64,000 nt of DNA, from the NCBI GenBank assembly GCA_902572345.1, contig CACGEW010000002.1, forward strand, positions 62,001 to 126,000. The letters run 5' to 3'. Made by a program: the position numbers and the translations under genes. Of the stretch, positions 11,858 through 53,681 are shown piece after piece. This DNA is from an uncultured Pelagibacteraceae bacterium. GTDB lineage: Bacteria > Pseudomonadota > Alphaproteobacteria > Pelagibacterales > Pelagibacteraceae. Each line of letters begins with the position of its first letter. Within the stretch, counting starts at the first letter, position 1. The notes under the pieces are model-generated. The model had not been told where the DNA came from, searched no databases, and saw nothing but the letters and a program-made list of their open reading frames with translations.

Positions 11858-12322
11858 ATGTTTTTATCAAGTTACGAGAACAAGATAGACAAGAAAGGTC
11901 GTGTTTCAGTGCCTGCTACTTTTAGATCTTATTTGAACTCTATGGGTTACAACGGATTTATAACTTACCCGTCATTTAATCATTCAGCGTTAGAAGCCTG
12001 CTCACAAGATAGAATAGAAAAACTTTCTAATACTATAGACTCTTTAAATCCTTTTGAAGAAAAAAGGGATTTTTTTGCTACTTCTGTTCTATCAGAAAGT
12101 GAAAACTTACAGTTTGATACCGAAGGGAGAATTTCTCTATCTATCAAATTATTAAATCATGCAAAAATAGATAATAAAATTTTATTCGTTGGTCTTGGTA
12201 AGACCTTCCAAATTTGGGAACCAAAACTTTTTGAAAAATTTAAAACTATAGCAAGAAAAAAAGCTTATCAAAATAGATCTAGCTTAAAATGGGAAAATAA
12301 ACAGAAGGGAGAACTGTCATGA
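11858..12322 (+). CDS. mraZ: Transcriptional regulator MraZ
   Basis: MraZ is the DNA-binding regulator encoded at the head of dcw clusters and acts on its own promoter. The 154-residue product has the two tandem AbrB-like SpoVT/MraZ domains. The first starts MFLSSYENKIDKKGRVSVPATFRSYL, with the conserved DxKGRxxxPxxFR motif; the second repeats it as FDTEGRISLSIKLLNHAKI. Both are needed to form the DNA-contact loops. The stop codon overlaps the ftsZ start in ATGA, so MraZ and FtsZ are translationally coupled, an unusual pairing. Three 10-bp-spaced CCCAT boxes upstream are its likely target. Confidence 0.95.
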   Translation: MFLSSYENKIDKKGRVSVPATFRSYLNSMGYNGFITYPSFNHSALEACSQDRIEKLSNTIDSLNPFEEKRDFFATSVLSESENLQFDTEGRISLSIKLLNHAKIDNKILFVGLGKTFQIWEPKLFEKFKTIARKKAYQNRSSLKWENKQKGELS

Positions 12323-13788
12323 GTATAAATATAGGAGGAGGAGAACTTAAAGAATTGAAACCTAGAATATTAGTTTTAGGTGTTGGCGGAGCTGGAGGAA
12401 ATGCAATAAATGCAATGATCGAGTCAGGTATGGAAGGCGTCGAATTTGTTGCAGTGAACACTGATGCGCAAGATTTAAAAATGAGCAAAGCTCAAGCTAA
12501 AATCCAAATTGGAATGAATTTAACAAAAGGTTTAGGAGCTGGAGCAAAACACGATATTGGACAAGCTGCTGCAGATGAGTCATTGAATGAAATAATAAAT
12601 TATATGCAAGGCGCTAATATGGTTTTTATTACTTCTGGAATGGGCGGAGGAACAGGGACTGGTGCATCGCATGTTATAGCTAAAGCGGCAAGAGAATTAA
12701 ATATTCTTACAGTTGGTGTAACAACATTACCTTTTTCTTATGAAGGCCCTAAAAGGATGAGAAGAGCTGTTGAAGGATTAGAAGAATTTAAAAAACATTT
12801 AGACACTGTAATAGTGGTGCCTAACCAAAATCTTTTTAAAATTGCTAGTGAAACAACTACTTTTGAAGAGTCATTTAATCTATCTAACAATGTTTTAAAA
12901 CATGGAGTGCAGAGCGTGACCGACTTGATGGTAAGACCCGGAATGATAAATTTAGATTTCGCTGATGTTGAAACTGTAATGAGCGCTATGGGCAAAGCTA
13001 TGATGGGAACAGGTGAAGCAGATGGAGATAATAGAGCAATGGTGGCAACAGAGATGGCTTTAAACAATCCTTTGATAGATGAGTATTCTCTTCAAGGAGC
13101 AAAAGGATTGTTAATAAATATTACTGGTGGAAATGATCTTACTCTTTTTGAAGTAGATCAGTCTGTAAATAAAATTAGAGCGGAGGTTGATCCAGAAGCA
13201 GAATTAATTTTTGGAGCAATTAAAGACGAGAACATGACTGGTAAAATTAGAGTATCAATAGTTGCAACTGCATTAGACGGACAACAAACTGAAAATAAAA
13301 CAGTTTTAAACATGGTCTCACGTATTCATAATCGAAATACAGGTTACTCTGAAAATTTATTTTCACAAAATCAAAGACTGGAAAATAATACTTTAGGTTC
13401 TATTGATGGAGCAACGGCGCTTAAACTTGATGAAACGTATCAAATTGATGAGGAGCAAAGCAATTCCTTTAATAATATTGAACAAAATTTAGAAAATGAA
13501 AGTTCAATTGTTTCATCTATTGGCCCAGAAAATGTTGTTAACAACATACCAGCAGGAGTTTCTATTGAAAGCGCATCTTACATAGAGAACAATAACCTAG
13601 ATGAAAGTGAGAACAGTAGTGATGAATACACTCCAAAGTTATTTTCTGAAGAGCAAAACTATCAGAATGAGGAAAGTAAAGAAATTAAAGATCAAGTTGA
13701 TCAAGATACTGAACAATTATTTGATCAAGACGTAAACGAAGACGAAGACTTTGAAATTCCCGCTTTTTTAAGAAAACAAAAGTTTTAA
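12319..13788 (+). CDS. ftsZ: Cell division protein FtsZ
   Basis: FtsZ is the tubulin-like GTPase that forms the division ring at mid-cell. The 489-residue product contains the nucleotide-binding block ([17 protein letters not shown]), the tubulin signature [12 protein letters not shown], the T7 synergy-loop region [11 protein letters not shown], and the GTPase C-terminal domain to about residue 330. A long acidic, glutamine- and asparagine-rich linker follows (about 340-470), ending in the conserved C-terminal peptide [11 protein letters not shown] that binds FtsA and other partners. The gene lies directly behind mraZ with a 4-base overlap rather than behind ftsA, as in most bacteria. SD-like AGGAGG bases occur only inside the coding region, so initiation probably relies on coupling to mraZ. 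Confidence 0.98.
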
Positions 13789-15127: not shown

Positions 15128-16845
15128 AGAAAAAATATAAAAAGGATAATAATATAAATCAAAGAAGTTTTTATTTTGAAGACTATCTAGAAACTGATAA
15201 AAAAAATAAAAGGTTAAAAAGATATAATAATTTCCAAGATAGAATCTATATATTATTTTTTTTATTTTTTTCTTTAATATTAATATTTTCAATTAGAATT
15301 ACTCACATTGCTCTTGATAAAAAAGATAATTTTAATTTTGAGAAAGAAAAGTCAAAATTTTCATTATTGAGAAGAGACATTGTTGACAGAAAAGGAGTAA
15401 TTATTTCAAGAAATGTAAATACTTTTCATGTAGCAATTAATCCTAGTTTGGTAAAAGATAAAAAAAATTTTTTAATTAAATTAAGATTAAATTTTCCCGA
15501 AATCGATATAAATAAAATCGAAAAAAAATTAAGTAAGGACAAATATTTTAGATTAAAGAAGAGAATTGATCAAAATGATAAAGAAAAATTTTGGGCTCTG
15601 GGGGAGAAAGCAATAAAATTTGAACCTTTCCAGGCAAGAATGTATACCCATGGAAATTTGTTTAGTCATATAATTGGACAAGTTGATTATGATAACTACG
15701 GTATTTCAGGCATAGAAAAATTTTTTGATAAAGAATTAAAAAAAAAGAGTCATTTAAATAAGCCTCTTAAATTAACTTTAGATAGCAACATTCAATATAT
15801 TATCAACAAAGAGGTAAGTAGTGCCATTAAAATTTTTGATGCTACTGGAGGGGCGGCCTTATTGATGGATGTAAATAATGGAGATATTTTATCTTTAGTC
15901 TCTTTACCAAATTTTAATATTAATCAAAGATCAACAATTAAGGATAAAAAATTTATAAATAAAATTACCAAAGGTGTCTATGAACTTGGTTCAATTTTTA
16001 AAACATTTACTGTGGCATTAGCACTTGATCATAATTTAGTTGAGACTGGAACACTTCTTGAAAACATTCCAAAAAAAATTAAATGCTCAATTCATGAAAT
16101 TACAGATATGAAAGAGCATCCAAAGAATTTATCTGTCGAAGAAATTTTAATAAGATCATCTAACGTGGGTTCAGTAATTCTTGCAAAGAAGGTTGGGGAA
16201 AAAAAATATAAGGAGTTTATTAAAAAAGCTAAACTTACTAATAATCCTGATATTGAATTAGAAGAGGTAGGGATGCCCCATCAACTTAAGTGGAACAAAT
16301 GTAAGTTAGAAACAATTTCGTATGGACATGGTATCACTACTACACCTCTACAAGCTACAGCGCTATATGCTGCTATGACTAATGGTGGAAAATTGATCAC
16401 ACCTAGTTTGATTAAAGATAGAACAATTAAATACTCAGGATCAATAATATCTAAAGAAACTAGCATCAAACTAAGCAAAATCTTAAGGAAAGTTGTTAAC
16501 AGTAAGATCGGTACTGCAAGTTTAGCTGACAAAGACGGTTATTATGTTGGTGGCAAAACTGGAACCGCTGAAAGTTATGGAGATAAAAGAAATAGAATTA
16601 ATACTTTTATTTCTATTTTTCCTACCAATAAACCTAGTTACACACTTTTTGTAATGTTAGAAAATCCTAAAATCAACAAAGATCTAATTTATAATTATAG
16701 GGGTATTGAAACAAAGGCGCCATATAACACTTCAGGCTGGAATTCTGTTTATGTGGCTGGCAAAATAATAGAGAAAATAGGACCAATTTTAGCCATAAAT
16801 AATAGTGAGTTTACTAATTTGCATGTTGCTGAAAAAACTAATTAA
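15124..16845 (+). CDS. ftsI: Division-specific peptidoglycan transpeptidase PBP3 (FtsI)
   Basis: FtsI cross-links septal peptidoglycan in partnership with FtsW. The 573-residue product has a lysine-rich cytoplasmic tail, one membrane anchor (about 43-62), the PBP dimerisation domain starting RRDIVDRKGVIISRNV, and a transpeptidase domain. Its three active-site motifs are intact: SIFK (serine nucleophile, in ELGSIFKTF), SSN (in IRSSNVGS) and KTG (in GGKTGTAESYG). The protein overlaps ftsL by 4 bases at the front and runs past the murEF start at the back. It is in the normal ftsL-ftsI-murE order. Confidence 0.96.
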   Translation: MKKKYKKDNNINQRSFYFEDYLETDKKNKRLKRYNNFQDRIYILFFLFFSLILIFSIRITHIALDKKDNFNFEKEKSKFSLLRRDIVDRKGVIISRNVNTFHVAINPSLVKDKKNFLIKLRLNFPEIDINKIEKKLSKDKYFRLKKRIDQNDKEKFWALGEKAIKFEPFQARMYTHGNLFSHIIGQVDYDNYGISGIEKFFDKELKKKSHLNKPLKLTLDSNIQYIINKEVSSAIKIFDATGGAALLMDVNNGDILSLVSLPNFNINQRSTIKDKKFINKITKGVYELGSIFKTFTVALALDHNLVETGTLLENIPKKIKCSIHEITDMKEHPKNLSVEEILIRSSNVGSVILAKKVGEKKYKEFIKKAKLTNNPDIELEEVGMPHQLKWNKCKLETISYGHGITTTPLQATALYAAMTNGGKLITPSLIKDRTIKYSGSIISKETSIKLSKILRKVVNSKIGTASLADKDGYYVGGKTGTAESYGDKRNRINTFISIFPTNKPSYTLFVMLENPKINKDLIYNYRGIETKAPYNTSGWNSVYVAGKIIEKIGPILAINNSEFTNLHVAEKTN

Positions 16846-19585
16846 AAATATTCCAAAAGATAAAAAGAATATTATCATTTCAGGCCTTTCTATAAAAAGC
16901 TGGGAAGTTAAAAAAAATTATATTTTTTTTGCAATCAAAGGAAACAAACAAAACGGTGAAAAATACATACCAGCCGCAATTAAAAATGGGGCATCTGTAA
17001 TAGTATGTTCTAAAAAATGTAAAATAAAAGATAATAGAATTTTAATCATAAAAACAAATGATGTTAGATATCTTTTAAGTGAAATAGCTTCAAAATTTTA
17101 TAAATTAAAGCCAAAAAATATAATTGCTGTCACAGGAACAAACGGAAAAACGTCTGTAGCAGACATATTTTATCAAATACTAAAAGCAAACAATGTACCA
17201 ACAGCATCTATCGGCACCTTGGGAGTAAAATATGAAAACAAAATAATAAAAACAAATCTTACTTCGCCTGACACAATTACAATTCATAAAACGCTAAATT
17301 TTTTAAAAAAGAAAAAAATTAATAATGTGATTATAGAAACCTCCAGCCATGGTTTAGAGCAAAAAAGATTACATCATTTAAATTTTGTTGGAGCGATTTT
17401 TACAAATTTTAGCCAAGATCACCTAGATTATCATAAAACTATGAAATCCTATTTAAACGCAAAACTAATTTTATTTAGGAAAATTTTAAATAAAAATTCT
17501 AAAATAATCACAGATAAAAAAATTGAACCATTCTCATTATTAAAAAAAATAGCTAAAAAAAGAAATTTAAAAATCTTGGACATAACTAAAGAATTAGAAA
17601 AGATAAAATATGTTTCTTTAAAGTTTCAAAGTGACTTTAAGTTTAAGAATTTAGCAATGGCAATTAAAGCTGCCAAAATATGCGGATTAAAAGAAAACAA
17701 TATTTTTAAAAAGATAAGTAAAATTGGTGATGTAAACGGTAGACTTGAGTTAGTAAAAAAATACCCAAATGAAATAAAAGTTTTTGTTGATTATGCACAC
17801 ACACCTGACGCATTAATTAAAACACTCAAAGCTTTAAAAGATAATTATGAAAAAAAAATATCAATTATTTTTGGTTGTGGAGGTGATAGAGATAAAAAAA
17901 AAAGACCTTTGATGGCTAAGATAGCTAATAAATATTGCAACAAAGTTTATATAACAGACGATAACCCAAGAAATGAAAATCCAAAAAAAATTAGAGATAA
18001 ATTAATAAAATATATTAAAAAAGAAAAAGTTTTTAATATAGGTAACAGAGAAGTTGCAATTAAAAAAGCCATACATGATGCAGTTGATCATGAAATTATT
18101 CTAATTGCCGGTAAGGGCCATGAAGAAAAACAAATTTATAAAAATAAAACAATAAATATTTCTGATAAAAAAATTGTTAAAAAGATCAGATTTAAAAAAA
18201 AAATTATTGATATAAAAAAAAAAAATTATATTCATAATCAATTTTTACTAAGTAAAATTTTAGGAAAAATAAAACCTATTAATTTTAACGGGCTTTCTAT
18301 TGATACGAGATCAATCAAAAAAGATAATTTATTTTTAGCGATTAAAGGAAAAAAAAAAGATGGAAACGACTTCATCCAAGAAGCCCTTAAAAAAAGAGCA
18401 GGATGTGTAGCATCCTCTTTAATTTTTAAAAAAAACAATAAAAAGATAATTAAGATAAATAACCCTATTGCTTTTTTAAACCGATTTGCAAATTTAAAAA
18501 GATTTCATACCCCAGCTAAGATAATAGCAGTGACAGGAAGTGTAGGAAAAACATCTTTTAAAAATTTACTAAAAGCCTTACTTCAAAATTTTGGCAAGAC
18601 TCATGCTTCGCCTTTGTCTTTTAATAACTATTTAGGAGTTCCTATAAGTTTATCTAATTTAAGTTGCGAAGATAAATTTGGAATTTTTGAGGTTGGTATG
18701 AGCCGAGCGGGAGAAATTAAAGCTTTAACAGGTTTAATTAAACCTCATATTGGCGTAATTACAAACATTGGTGAAGCACACCTTGAGAATTTCAAAAATA
18801 TAAGTGGAATTGCAAAAGCTAAGTCTGAAATTATCGAAAATATTGAATCTGGCGGAACAATTATTTTAAATAGAGATGACAAATTTTATAACTATTTATA
18901 TAAAAAAGCTAAATCATATAATTTAAAAATTTCAACATTTGGAATACATAAAAATTCAGATATTTGTCTTAAAAAGATCATAAAAAAAAGTGATGTGACA
19001 AAAATAATTCTAAAAATTGATAATCGCTTATTGGATTTAAAATTTAAAGATTTAAATATTCAAAATATATTATCCTCAATAGCAGTTTTACATCAACTTA
19101 AAGTCAATATTTATGAAATTAAAGATAAATTTATACATTTTAAACCACCCCAAGGAAGAGGTAGAGAATATTTCATTTCAAGATATAAAAAAAAGTTTCG
19201 TTTGATTGATGAAAGCTATAATGCTAGTCCGACATCAGTTAAAAATGCAATAAAAAAACTCAGCTTAATTAAGAAAGTAAAATTCAAAAAATACCTGATT
19301 TTAGGTGATATGCTTGAATTAGGATCTAAATCGCAAAAATTTCATGAAGATTTGTCCAAAGTTATTAACAATTCTGATATTGATAAAGTTTTCATTAAAG
19401 GAAAAAAAACAATTTTCACATATAAACATTTAAACAAAGATAAAAGAGGAAACATTTTACAAAATAACGAAGATATAGACACGAGTTTAAGCCAAATGTT
19501 ATCTAACAATGATTATTTGATGATAAAAGGTTCAAACGCAACTGGGCTTAATAAATTTAGCAAAAAATTGATAATGGGATTATAA
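16823..19585 (+). CDS. murEF: MurE-MurF fusion: UDP-MurNAc-tripeptide synthetase / UDP-MurNAc-pentapeptide synthetase
   Basis: One reading frame of 920 residues encodes two consecutive Mur ligases. The first half (to about residue 455) is MurE: P-loop AVTGTNGKTSVAD, SSHGLEQKR, and DNPRNE. The DNPR motif marks use of meso-diaminopimelate. After a lysine/isoleucine linker (about 455-470) the second half is MurF: SIDTRSIKKDNLFLAIKG, P-loop AVTGSVGKTSFKNLL, NNYLGVPISL, GEAHLENF, DESYNASPTS. It would add meso-DAP and then D-Ala-D-Ala to the precursor. I chose the ATG at 16823 (MLLKKLIKN) over a GTG 18 bases upstream. It overlaps ftsI by 23 bases, and its stop abuts the mraY ATG. No separate murF is present. 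Confidence 0.95.
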   Translation: MLLKKLIKNIPKDKKNIIISGLSIKSWEVKKNYIFFAIKGNKQNGEKYIPAAIKNGASVIVCSKKCKIKDNRILIIKTNDVRYLLSEIASKFYKLKPKNIIAVTGTNGKTSVADIFYQILKANNVPTASIGTLGVKYENKIIKTNLTSPDTITIHKTLNFLKKKKINNVIIETSSHGLEQKRLHHLNFVGAIFTNFSQDHLDYHKTMKSYLNAKLILFRKILNKNSKIITDKKIEPFSLLKKIAKKRNLKILDITKELEKIKYVSLKFQSDFKFKNLAMAIKAAKICGLKENNIFKKISKIGDVNGRLELVKKYPNEIKVFVDYAHTPDALIKTLKALKDNYEKKISIIFGCGGDRDKKKRPLMAKIANKYCNKVYITDDNPRNENPKKIRDKLIKYIKKEKVFNIGNREVAIKKAIHDAVDHEIILIAGKGHEEKQIYKNKTINISDKKIVKKIRFKKKIIDIKKKNYIHNQFLLSKILGKIKPINFNGLSIDTRSIKKDNLFLAIKGKKKDGNDFIQEALKKRAGCVASSLIFKKNNKKIIKINNPIAFLNRFANLKRFHTPAKIIAVTGSVGKTSFKNLLKALLQNFGKTHASPLSFNNYLGVPISLSNLSCEDKFGIFEVGMSRAGEIKALTGLIKPHIGVITNIGEAHLENFKNISGIAKAKSEIIENIESGGTIILNRDDKFYNYLYKKAKSYNLKISTFGIHKNSDICLKKIIKKSDVTKIILKIDNRLLDLKFKDLNIQNILSSIAVLHQLKVNIYEIKDKFIHFKPPQGRGREYFISRYKKKFRLIDESYNASPTSVKNAIKKLSLIKKVKFKKYLILGDMLELGSKSQKFHEDLSKVINNSDIDKVFIKGKKTIFTYKHLNKDKRGNILQNNEDIDTSLSQMLSNNDYLMIKGSNATGLNKFSKKLIMGL

Positions 19586-26430: not shown

Positions 26431-27361
26431 AAGAAAATTTAAAAATGTTCTGGTTGTCTTAGGTGGTATTTCTGGTGAGAGAACTATCAGTTTAGAGAGC
26501 GGTAAGGCATGCATCAAAGCTTTGAAAATAAAAGGGTATAACGTAAAATCTTTTGATCCGAAATTCCATAATTTCAATTTAATTAATAGAAAAAACACAG
26601 ATGTTATTTTTAATGCGTTACATGGTAAAGATGGAGAGGATGGAGTAGCACAAAGTTATTTTGAATATTTAAAAATTCCTTACACTCACTCAGGAGTTAT
26701 CAGTTCGTATAACGCAATGAATAAAATTATTTCTAAAGAGCTATTTATTAAAAATAAAATTAAAACTCCAAAATATATTTCAATTGATAAATTTGAGTTC
26801 AAACAAAACAAAATTAAAAAACTTTTAAAAAAAAAAAAATTTAACTTTCCGGTTGTTGTTAAGCCAACTAATGAAGGATCTAGTCTTGGAGTTAAAGTTT
26901 GCAAGGATTTAGATAAATTTAATAAATTTTCTAAAAATTTATTTAAAAAGTATGATGAACTTTTAATTGAAGAATACATAGCAGGCCAGGAAATCCAAGT
27001 AGCAGTAATTAATGGAAAACCAATAGGAGCTATTGAGCTTATTCCAAAAAGATTGTTTTACGATTACAAAGCTAAATATACAAAAAAAGCTAAAACTAAA
27101 CATATAATGCCAGCAAAATTAAAAAAAAAAAAATATAAGGAAGTTTTAATGATAGGAAAAAAAACTCACAATATTTTAGAATGTAGAGGAGTAACAAGAT
27201 CAGACTTTAAGTTCTTTAAAAATAATTTTTATTTACTCGAGATCAATACGCAGCCAGGAATGACTAGCTTATCTCTTGTACCTGAGATAGCCAATTATGT
27301 GGGTATATCCTTTGAAAATTTAGTTGAAAAAATTTTGTTAGACGCAAGCATAAATAGATGA
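26423..27361 (+). CDS. ddl: D-alanine--D-alanine ligase
   Basis: Ddl makes D-Ala-D-Ala, the substrate of the MurF half of the fusion protein. The ATP-grasp enzyme is 312 residues from the GTG start used here (a TTG lies one codon upstream). Visible motifs are LGGISGERTISLESG (serine/glutamate substrate pocket), NALHGKDGEDGVAQSYFEYL, PVVVKPTNEGSSLGV, LIEEYIAGQEIQVAV, and the metal site FYLLEINTQPGMTSLSLVPE. It overlaps murB by 8 bases and ftsQ by 4. Confidence 0.96.
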   Translation: MIKRKFKNVLVVLGGISGERTISLESGKACIKALKIKGYNVKSFDPKFHNFNLINRKNTDVIFNALHGKDGEDGVAQSYFEYLKIPYTHSGVISSYNAMNKIISKELFIKNKIKTPKYISIDKFEFKQNKIKKLLKKKKFNFPVVVKPTNEGSSLGVKVCKDLDKFNKFSKNLFKKYDELLIEEYIAGQEIQVAVINGKPIGAIELIPKRLFYDYKAKYTKKAKTKHIMPAKLKKKKYKEVLMIGKKTHNILECRGVTRSDFKFFKNNFYLLEINTQPGMTSLSLVPEIANYVGISFENLVEKILLDASINR

Positions 27362-28014
27362 AAAAACGTACTGTAATTGCGTTTGCATTACTAATACTTC
27401 TGACAACGATAGTTCCAGAAAAAAAAATTCAAATATTAAAATTTAATATCAAAGAAATAAAAATTGAAAATAATTTTATTCTCAAGGAGCGAGACATAAA
27501 AAATTTATTAAGCAAGTTTTATGATGAAAATCTTATATTTATTAAAAATGAAGATATAAAAAAAGCTTTATTGAAAAATACATTTATTGAAAGTTTTAAT
27601 GTAAAAAAAAAATATCCAAATACACTAAAAATAAAAGTTTTTGAAAAAAAACCGATTGCAATTTTATTTCATAATAAAAAAAAATTTTATCTCAGTGATA
27701 AGGCTGATTTAATAGAATTTAATAATCTCAAAAATTTTCAAAATTTGCCTTATGTTTTTGGAAGACAACAAGAATTTAAGAAATTATATTTAAATTTAAA
27801 AAAAATTGACTTTCCATTAGAGACTATAAAAAAATATACCTTTTTCGAGTCAAAAAGATGGGATTTAGAAACAAAAAATAATGTGATAATAAAACTTCCA
27901 TCAAAAAATTATAAAAAAAATTTAGAAAATTTTTTAAAATTAATTGATAAAAAAAGTTTTAAAAAATACAAGGTATTTGATTTCAGAATTGAGAATCAGC
28001 TAATCTTAAAATAA
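27358..28014 (+). CDS. ftsQ: FtsQ-like divisome protein
   Basis: FtsQ is a bitopic inner-membrane protein that joins FtsL and FtsB in the divisome. The 218-residue product has one N-terminal membrane segment (about 5-20), then a POTRA-like domain (IKEIKIENNFILKERDIKNLL...ALLKNTFIESFNVKKKYPNTLKIKVFEKKPIAI) and a beta domain ending near residue 215. The 'yPntL.I.v.Ek.Pia.w' pattern is the clearest family mark. It starts in a 4-base overlap with ddl and ends 3 bases before ftsA, the usual ddl-ftsQ-ftsA order. It is shorter than the 250-280 residues common in the family. Confidence 0.9.
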   Translation: MKKRTVIAFALLILLTTIVPEKKIQILKFNIKEIKIENNFILKERDIKNLLSKFYDENLIFIKNEDIKKALLKNTFIESFNVKKKYPNTLKIKVFEKKPIAILFHNKKKFYLSDKADLIEFNNLKNFQNLPYVFGRQQEFKKLYLNLKKIDFPLETIKKYTFFESKRWDLETKNNVIIKLPSKNYKKNLENFLKLIDKKSFKKYKVFDFRIENQLILK

Positions 28015-28017
28015 ATT

Positions 28018-29211
28018 ATGAGCAAGTCTTCATTAAATCTTTATATTGAAATAAATAATTTAGATTTGGTTTTTTTTGCAGGAAAAAGCAGTGACATAAA
28101 TGATTTTAAGATTTTATATAAACTAGCTGTTCCAATTATGGGATTAAAAGATAATAGCATTTCTAACTTTGATGAAATTTTTAATTTAATAAAAGAAAAT
28201 ATATACTTAATCGAAAAAAAATATGAGTTTACTTTTAAAGAAATAATAATAATTTTGGAAAATTTTAATTTGAGTTTTTTAAACTTATCAGGTTACCAAA
28301 AACTAAATGGATCACAGATATTAAGAGAAAATATTACTTATATTATAAATTCATTAAAATCTTATGTAGATAAAATCGAGTCAAAAAAAACAATAATACA
28401 TATTTTTAACTCTAAATATAATTTAGATTATAAGAAAATTGAAAATCTTCCTATTGGATTATTTGGAGATTTTTATTCGCACGAACTTTCATTTGCACTA
28501 ATAAACACAAATGATTATAAAAATTTAGAGAAGATTTTTACAAACTGTAATTTAAAGATTAAAAAAATTTTACTTAAAAGTTATGTTGCTGGCGCATTGA
28601 TAAGTGAAATTCACAAAACAGAAACATTTTTTAAAATTAATATTCAAAAAGAAAAATCAAAAATTTTTTATTTTGAAAATAACTCGCTTAAGTATGAACA
28701 AAACTTTAAATTTGGTTATGAAATAATAAAAAGAGATATATCTAAAATCACATCCTTGAAAATTTCAACTATTGAAAATATTATTGATAATGTTGAATTT
28801 ACTCCAAATTTGATTCCAACAGAATTAATTGACAAGAAGTTTTTTAATGGTGAGCCATATAGAAAAATCAAAAAAAAACTAATCTATGATATAGCATTTG
28901 CTAGAATAAATGAATTTTTTGAGATTATTGTTACAAAAAATGTAAACTTTGGACACTACAATAGGTTTAAAAAAGACATTTTTATAGAGTTTGACTCTAA
29001 GAGTTTGTCAAAAAACATTGTAGATATTTTTAGATATTATCTCTCAACTAGAGAAGATTTAGACGTTAATTTTTTATTCAATTTAAATTCTGACATGATG
29101 TTGAATACTGCCCATAAATTAGTTCATTTTGGTTGGAAAAAAGAGGCGATACCTATCGCCCAATCAAAAAAATCCTTAATAAGTAAGTTTTTTGAGGCGA
29201 TCTTCGGTTAA
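28018..29211 (+). CDS. ftsA: Divergent FtsA-like protein, nucleotide-binding motifs lost
   Basis: By position (ddl-ftsQ-ftsA-lpxC) and length (397 residues) this is FtsA, the actin-like protein that anchors FtsZ to the membrane. Faint FtsA landmarks remain: TIIHIFNSKYNLDYKKIENLPIG aligns with the SHI-to-1C 'HiipqeY.lDg..gi..PiGm' region, and a C-terminal KKSLISKFFEAIFG matches the membrane-targeting amphipathic helix. The actin-type ATP motifs are not recognisable: the N-terminal DIGT loop reads LYIEINNLD, the second DIGGGTTD loop reads KINIQKEKSKI, and the C-terminal TGGxxxLPG adenosine loop reads EFDSKSLSKNI. It may no longer bind ATP. ftsZ, normally next, is missing here. The name rests mainly on context. 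Confidence 0.75.
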   Translation: MSKSSLNLYIEINNLDLVFFAGKSSDINDFKILYKLAVPIMGLKDNSISNFDEIFNLIKENIYLIEKKYEFTFKEIIIILENFNLSFLNLSGYQKLNGSQILRENITYIINSLKSYVDKIESKKTIIHIFNSKYNLDYKKIENLPIGLFGDFYSHELSFALINTNDYKNLEKIFTNCNLKIKKILLKSYVAGALISEIHKTETFFKINIQKEKSKIFYFENNSLKYEQNFKFGYEIIKRDISKITSLKISTIENIIDNVEFTPNLIPTELIDKKFFNGEPYRKIKKKLIYDIAFARINEFFEIIVTKNVNFGHYNRFKKDIFIEFDSKSLSKNIVDIFRYYLSTREDLDVNFLFNLNSDMMLNTAHKLVHFGWKKEAIPIAQSKKSLISKFFEAIFG

Positions 29212-46667: not shown

Positions 46668-47585
46668 TTGTCAAAAAAAATAATCCTTTTAGCAGGACCT
46701 ACAGCTTCAGGAAAATCAAAACTAGCTATTTATCTAGCAAAAAAAATAAATGGAGAAATTATAAATGCAGATAGTATGCAAATTTATAAAGAATTCTCTA
46801 TTTTATCCTCTAGACCGAAAAGATCTGAAACAAAAAAAATTAAACATCATTTGTACGGCATAGTGTCAGTTAAAAGATATTTCTCAGCAGGCGACTGGCT
46901 AAAACAAGCGAAAAAAAAAGTAAATTTATGTTTAAAAAATAATAAAGTTCCAATTATTGTTGGGGGTACTGGTTTATATTTTAACATTATTACAAAGGGA
47001 ATTAGTAAAATTCCAGATATTGACATTAAAACAAGAAAAAATGTGAGAGTTTTATTTAAAAAACTCGGCGCTAAAAAATTTTATGAAAAACTTTTAGTGC
47101 TAGATCCTAAAGTTAAAAATAGAATTAATCCAAAAGATTCCCAAAGGATTCAAAGAGCCTATGAAGTAAAACTTAAAACAAAAAAGTCTTTGTTTGACTG
47201 GTTTGCTAAAACGAAATCAGATTTTTTGGATTTCGATTTAAGAAAAGTTTTTATTGATATCCCAAGGATGGATCTACTTCCGAATATTTCAAAAAGAACA
47301 GAACTTATGTTTAAAGAAGATTGCTTAAAAGAGGTTAAAAAATTTAATTCAATGAGGTTAAATAAAAGTCTATCAGCCAATAAATTGATAGGAGTTCAAG
47401 AAATTAATCAATTTATTAAAGACAGTATCTCACTAGACGAATGTAAAGAGCTTATCAATATTAAGACAAGACAGTACGCTAAAAGACAAAATACATGGGC
47501 TCGGGGACATATGAAGAATTGGAACAAGCTATATTCCAAAAATTTCTCTATTCTTTTAAAAAAAACATTAAAAGTCATCAGCTAA
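46668..47585 (+). CDS. miaA: tRNA dimethylallyltransferase
   Basis: MiaA adds an isopentenyl group to A37 of tRNAs that read U-starting codons. The 305-residue product starts with the P-loop ILLAGPTASGKSKLAIYLA, then NADSMQIYKEFSILSSRP, HHLYGIVSVKRYFSAGDW, PIIVGGTGLYFNIITKG and the C-terminal TRQYAKRQNTWARGH motif. The only start that keeps the P-loop is TTG at 46668, one base after the degP stop, so it should rely on coupling. It is the last gene before the ilv promoter. Confidence 0.95.
   Translation: MSKKIILLAGPTASGKSKLAIYLAKKINGEIINADSMQIYKEFSILSSRPKRSETKKIKHHLYGIVSVKRYFSAGDWLKQAKKKVNLCLKNNKVPIIVGGTGLYFNIITKGISKIPDIDIKTRKNVRVLFKKLGAKKFYEKLLVLDPKVKNRINPKDSQRIQRAYEVKLKTKKSLFDWFAKTKSDFLDFDLRKVFIDIPRMDLLPNISKRTELMFKEDCLKEVKKFNSMRLNKSLSANKLIGVQEINQFIKDSISLDECKELINIKTRQYAKRQNTWARGHMKNWNKLYSKNFSILLKKTLKVIS

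Positions 47586-51057: not shown

Positions 51058-53681
<2,624 letters not shown>

Follow-up and report, generated by a model that had tools for sequence, protein, structure and literature searches.

The ftsA gene in the SAR11 DNA analysed here, a stretch of 64,000 nucleotides referred to below as the window, encodes an FtsA orthologue by descent, a true descendant of FtsA. Sequence comparison and a predicted structure suggest that this protein no longer uses ATP and serves as an ATP-independent, static membrane adaptor, a reading to which we assign a probability of about 0.6; it appears to keep what recruitment and partner binding need, without the motifs of the ATP cycle. What FtsA uses ATP for is still debated. 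SAR11, one of the ocean's most abundant bacterial groups, offers a natural experiment on this question, as one clade keeps FtsA under selection with its ATP motifs gone and a related genus (g4) often keeps only about half of the protein. If the reading is confirmed, three functions of FtsA, those of ATP, of FtsZ binding and of partner binding, are separated from one another in the SAR11 proteins. A literature search found no paper on a degenerate FtsA nucleotide site, and no title on SAR11 FtsA stood among the literature matches listed, preprints and most subscription papers being outside its scope. The features discussed are collected in Table 1.

Table 1. Features of the window, with the evidence on which each is placed
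Feature	Position	Strand	Basis
ftsZ, 489 residues, directly after mraZ	12319..13788	+	intact open reading frame
ftsQ	27358..28014	+	POTRA_1 and FtsQ_DivIB_C
FtsA orthologue without nucleotide loops, 397 residues (P0001)	28018..29211	+	profile, AF2 model, structure comparison
Phosphate loop 1 site, YIEINNLD, residues 9-16; Glu11 kept, Gly lost	28042..28065	+	alignment with E. coli FtsA
1C (SHS2) domain, residues about 82-163, with the NSKYNLDYKKIENLPIG block	28261..28506	+	borders from alignment and model
Phosphate loop 2 site, KINIQKEKSKI, residues 206-216; Asp and Gly lost	28633..28665	+	alignment with E. coli FtsA
2B helix, residues 286-306, with R296 and E299	28873..28935	+	alignment, model
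Adenosine loop site, EFDSKSLSKNI, residues 324-334; GG motif lost	28987..29019	+	alignment with E. coli FtsA
C-terminal amphipathic helix, residues 384-397 (KKSLISKFFEAIFG), presumed membrane anchor	29167..29208	+	model, hydrophobic moment

Locus, orthology and predicted structure

The open reading frame has the length of FtsA and occupies the place of ftsA in the dcw cluster, as a sequence-only reading of this DNA had stated: it follows ftsQ, starting three bases past its end, and is followed by lpxC (from 29272). The NCBIfam ftsA profile TIGR01174 matches residues 21-310 with an E-value of 7.2e-27. The score of 94.4 bits is about half of the curated equivalog cut-off (175.85), which is exceeded in only 38 of 297 family genomes and is also missed by several genomes that keep the nucleotide loops. 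Pfam gives SHS2_FTSA (E 0.0012, below the gathering score) and FtsA (E 0.22), and a phmmer search of the PDB returned three sequences at E-values of up to 10, all of them FtsA, the best at 1.2e-7. A TIGR01174 search of the 92%-complete genome found no second ftsA. Its further matches lie at 53037-53597 of the window, at C2:23598-23861 outside the window and, in two pieces, in one 643-residue frame of C4; these three regions are probably other actin-fold proteins (MreB, DnaK and the like).

AF2, given 20 aligned SAR11 sequences, models the protein with a mean pLDDT of 85.9 and a pTM of 0.83. In the structural comparison proposed by the sequence-only reading, the best matches are all FtsA (Foldseek E 5.7e-23). 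VIA-align superimposes 360 residues of the model on FtsA 7q6g at a Z-score of 25.0 (rmsd 5.3, 14% identity), and the first rows that are not FtsA follow at Z 17.4 (pilus machine 3jc8) and 17.2 (PilM-PilN 2ych). The model thus predicts that the whole four-subdomain FtsA fold is kept, with 1C in place of the 1B of actin.

Within this fold, 1C is the best-conserved domain in the window genus (g1), with a mean pairwise identity of 0.67. Domain 2 is complete in the window clade and is modelled with good confidence, and the 2B helix that carries an arginine and a glutamate is among the better-kept parts there (0.60). Both residues (R296 and E299, equivalent to E. coli R300 and E303) are invariant in all 69 distinct full-length SAR11 FtsA sequences; we take them to be the FtsZ-contact residues of the 2B helix. 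A C-terminal amphipathic membrane helix is predicted as well, modelled at residues 387-396 with low confidence (pLDDT 52-58); its amphipathicity is matched by about 5% of the other 11-residue segments (shuffle p 0.04).

Loss of the nucleotide loops

The three strings that had been proposed as remnants of the nucleotide loops are not misplaced, since alignment with E. coli FtsA puts them on all three loops. E. coli phosphate loop 1, GLEIGTAKV, corresponds to YIEINNLDL, phosphate loop 2 to KINIQKEKSK and the adenosine loop IVLTGGAAQIEG to FIEFDSKSLSKN. The claim that all three are unrecognisable holds with one correction: phosphate loop 1 retains its acid, Glu11, which is equivalent to E. coli E14. 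Apart from this residue, the motifs of both phosphate loops and of the adenosine loop are absent, although the loss of motifs is no proof that ATP binding is lost.

The state of the loops was scored at fixed columns (the acid and glycine of both phosphate loops and the first glycine of the adenosine loop) in the 69 distinct sequences among 70 aligned full-length SAR11 FtsA (one duplicate). All three loops are missing from 33 sequences and present in another 33, with three intermediate. The loop-less group comprises 14/14 sequences of the window genus, 11/11 distinct sequences of named relatives, 7/7 of g2 and the single g8 sequence; in all 33, the pseudo-actin that the sequence-only reading had envisaged is recovered, with a predicted FtsA fold, the 1C block and the C-terminal helix. 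The loops are kept in 18 of 19 full-length g4 sequences and in all of g3, g5, g7, g9, g10, g11 and g12, the intermediates being one g4 and two sister-family sequences. The count leaves out g13, g14, the partial locus L050 (one of 13 from named relatives) and, through a start-codon filter, two g6 genomes, which carry D-x-G, D-x-G-x-x-K-T-S and GEGS. A tree built on nine proteins encoded nearby, with 104 of 113 rows after nine were dropped for low coverage, places g8, g2, g1 and the named relatives on one branch (support 0.96, or 1.00 without g8). As the loop-less sequences form one clade, a single loss explains all of them. Very small cells, offered earlier as the setting of the loss, fail as its whole cause, because SAR11 genera with similarly small genomes (1.0-1.2 Mb), g5 and g9 among them, keep the loops.

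In the sister family f2 (L077-L079 and L081-L100), the loops are partly eroded (DIR, DIQ or EVQ, TGYGA) and not fully lost. Across the class, scores exceed the FtsA cut-off in 131 of the 144 genomes searched, of which two are SAR11. The loops were inspected at 50 of these class loci, 30 best and 20 mostly low scorers with the middle of the list left out; one genome is in both sets, and eight rows are truncated, seven of them ahead of loop 1 and one inside it. Nearly all 50 keep loops that can be recognised in full or in part, and a few besides L241 are partly eroded. The latter locus (genome G428, 1.4 Mb, from another alphaproteobacterial family) encodes a 397-residue FtsA with loops eroded likewise and also without the Arg/Glu pair of the 2B helix, possibly an independent case.

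These patterns bear on whether the window protein might still bind ATP through diverged loops that sequence comparison does not see. The four-subdomain fold kept in the model would allow for this, as would the loop 1 acid, which is kept in 30 of the 33 distinct loop-less sequences; this is more retention than free drift would suggest, as if something still holds the acid. Against residual binding, one clade lost the three loops jointly, and little conservation remains in them today; nearly all of the 50 class loci retain a recognisable part of the set. We consider such binding quite improbable. In g1 and the named relatives, mean pairwise identity is 0.41, 0.40 and 0.27 in the three loop regions versus 0.67 in 1C; in four basal loop-keeping genera taken together, it is 0.58, 0.66 and 0.54 in the loops and 0.46 in 1C. 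The shift in conservation is not clean, since in loop-keeping g3 1C (0.78) also exceeds the loops (0.71, 0.64 and 0.65).

It is less probable still that ftsA is a decaying gene without function. A broken ftsA does occur in this place in one complete g4 genome (G078, described below), but frames of 390-401 residues are open in 32 distinct g1, g2 and named sequences, and one of 419 residues in g8. Moreover, dN/dS (NG86) lies between 0.08 and 0.21 in 13 close pairs, nine from g1 at 0.13-0.21 and four from g2 at 0.08-0.12; among basal genera that keep the loops, eight pairs are likewise at 0.08-0.12. These are rough values (pairs of at least 68% identity, dS up to 2.0) and the window protein is in no pair, its nearest relative being 59% identical. 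They show purifying selection on the loop-less ftsA of close relatives, where the gene is not decaying. Both sequence and evolution support the pseudo-actin reading well.

FtsZ, divisome partners and the mini-FtsA of genus g4

In the adaptor reading, the C-terminal helix of the window protein would lie in the membrane, the 2B helix would grip the tail peptide of FtsZ through R296 and E299, and the 1C face, the most conserved, would hold a second FtsA or a membrane divisome protein. Any contacts between FtsA molecules would depend on their concentration and on partners, not on an ATP cycle. The role as an FtsZ adaptor is plausible because the 2B helix keeps the two presumed FtsZ contacts; their retention could instead be structural.

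The sequence-only reading had tied the loss of the loops to the removal of ftsZ from the side of ftsA, and the two genes are indeed not adjacent: mraZ and then ftsZ, whose start overlaps the end of mraZ, stand at the head of the cluster (11858-13788) and not after ftsA, so that ftsZ lies about 14 kb upstream of ftsA. The proposed link does not hold, however. In every genome with both genes on one stretch, ftsZ is 12.9-14.9 kb upstream on the same strand, and as the distance is the same in loop-keeping g3, g5, g7, g9 and g12 and in full-length g4, the position of ftsZ is unrelated to the loss of the loops. A loss of ftsZ itself is rejected by the intact gene in the window. Between ftsZ and ftsA, a 926-residue frame (16805-19585) contains two stretches of each Mur ligase domain and is apparently a MurE-MurF fusion, the E and F labels being inferred from gene order. 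The FtsZ tail EIPAFLR[RK]Q is found in 82/82 FtsZ overall and is unchanged in 33/33 genomes that have ftsZ on the stretch together with a shortened FtsA (mini-FtsA); since it is equally kept where FtsA is without 2B, the tail is no evidence for binding by the window protein.

The mini-FtsA belongs to g4 (loci L101-L120 and L161-L200). Among 60 g4 genomes, 19 have a full-length FtsA (368-391 residues), 36 a mini form (220-236 residues) and one a broken gene, with four cut by contig ends; as the 60 were hand-picked from about 100, some for their FtsA result, 36/60 is no frequency. By an alignment read on either side of its middle part, the mini form is missing one large internal block, 2A and 2B including phosphate loop 2 and the adenosine loop; 1A-1C is kept, and beyond the gap the alignment resumes with the last helix of 1A, followed by the membrane helix. 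Its model (pLDDT 87.8, pTM 0.81) aligns with FtsA once domain 2 is passed over (Foldseek E 5.5e-13; Z 13.9, 196 residues, rmsd 4.4), and a dN/dS of 0.14-0.30 in 12 pairs indicates purifying selection.

A domain-2 profile found no match in 17 g4 genomes without the full-length gene (16 mini, one broken), with 4/4 full-length g4 genomes detected as controls. A split gene for domain 2 was thus rejected in these 17 genomes, although a diverged piece could escape the profile, which also misses domain 2 of g1 and g2 genomes; a match in G000 (E 0.03) falls in another gene of the window, at 46980-47102. The broken g4 gene (L105) stands between ftsQ and lpxC in G078, a single-contig genome rated 100% complete, where in-frame stops leave frames of 75 and 81 residues.

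A single mini clade is rejected (p-AU 1.25e-7; fewest changes 3) by a dcw tree that was built with a quick search and a simple model from 33 rows, comprising 19 of the 36 mini genomes, ten of the 19 full-length g4 genomes and four others; the mini group tested was defined after seeing an earlier tree. In a tree of FtsA domain 1 (34 rows), the full-length genes are grouped at 81/87, which is not firm but would be consistent with one deletion followed by a regain. The mini form may thus have arisen in at least two lineages, or once with regain by recombination. At L113 (G097) and L196 (G228), the concatenated neighbouring proteins are near-identical and the N-termini of the mini-FtsA clearly different, which hints that the ftsA allele was replaced or that the gene changes very fast.

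The mini form lends some weight to a different view of the window protein, in which FtsZ tethering has been abandoned. The only parts that count would then be 1A-1C and the membrane helix, serving at the membrane as receptor for a divisome protein other than FtsZ; domain 2 would be a relic in the course of being lost, and FtsZ would have a different tether. In g4, the mini form is kept under purifying selection without domain 2, which was not found elsewhere in the 17 genomes, and the FtsZ tail of the mini genomes is intact, probably with another ligand; no domain is kept better than 1C in the window genus either. Nevertheless, g4 is a separate lineage, domain 2 of the window clade is complete and confidently modelled with its Arg/Glu helix well kept, and a substitute tether was not found, with ZipA_C in 0/17 genomes and SepF with no match over the cut-off in 17 (two at E 0.08-0.09). 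We regard abandoned tethering as rather unlikely for the window protein.

As for the 1C partner, no FtsN was recognised by a SPOR search of 17 genomes. The search matched eight of them, and FtsN as partner was rejected on the basis of these matches, since all eight proteins read by eye (signal, Cys) as lipoproteins that are presumably RlpA-like; a diverged FtsN may still be the partner. In one published study, the FtsN tail binds the IA-IC cleft of Vibrio FtsA, making 1C a known partner site, and FtsA filaments form longitudinal contacts through IIA-IIB and lateral contacts through IC (PMC7613929). In another, four E. coli FtsA mutants altered near the active site recruit FtsZ to lipid to varying degrees in vitro, three of the four fail to destabilise FtsZ polymers, and the mutants have ring assembly defects in vivo (PMC10213515). 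The binding of FtsN to the IA-IC cleft fits an ATP-free adaptor, whereas the E. coli mutants warn that the ATP site matters, and their defects in vivo imply that an ATP-free FtsA would need changed partners.

In SAR11 cells with a loop-less or cut-down FtsA, division probably proceeds without ATP driving FtsA in the usual way. To judge from the mini form, 1A-1C and the helix are the part of FtsA that cells cannot do without. At even odds, SAR11 would have dismantled the actin engine of FtsA by two routes, erosion of the loops with the fold kept in the window clade and removal of domain 2 in the g4 mini form, leaving 1A-1C and the helix as the common, indispensable core, with species that have the mini form tethering FtsZ by something new. 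The mini-FtsA genomes also suggest that FtsZ has a tether beyond those recognised so far.

Comparison with known systems

FtsA of E. coli, Vibrio maritimus and Thermotoga maritima has the same four-subdomain fold with 1C and a C-terminal amphipathic helix, and E. coli FtsA further resembles the window protein in following ftsQ and in the Arg and Glu of its 2B helix. The window protein differs from these in having lost both phosphate loops as well as the adenosine loop and in scoring under the curated cut-off; 52 of 394 aligned residues are identical to those of E. coli FtsA.

The cytoplasmic domain of GspL/EpsL in type II secretion is, like the window protein, an actin-like fold at the membrane. 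It is not known to use nucleotide, and its anchor differs from that of FtsA. Cyto-EpsL (1yf5) matches the window model with Z 12.4 over 225 residues (rmsd 4.0), a level also reached by several unrelated actin-fold proteins (Z 12.3-12.9), and GspL (4pht) is the best match of the mini-FtsA model after FtsA (Z 10.6, 156 residues, rmsd 3.9). GspL/EpsL is not orthologous to FtsA, and its partner is GspE.

PilM of type IV pili has an FtsA-like fold with 1C and matches the window model with Z 17.2 over 306 residues (2ych, rmsd 5.4). In the Vibrio FtsA study, PilN binds the same cleft on PilM that FtsN binds on FtsA (PMC7613929). Unlike the window protein with its lost loops, PilM has been solved with ATP, ADP or AMP-PNP bound, according to PDB titles.
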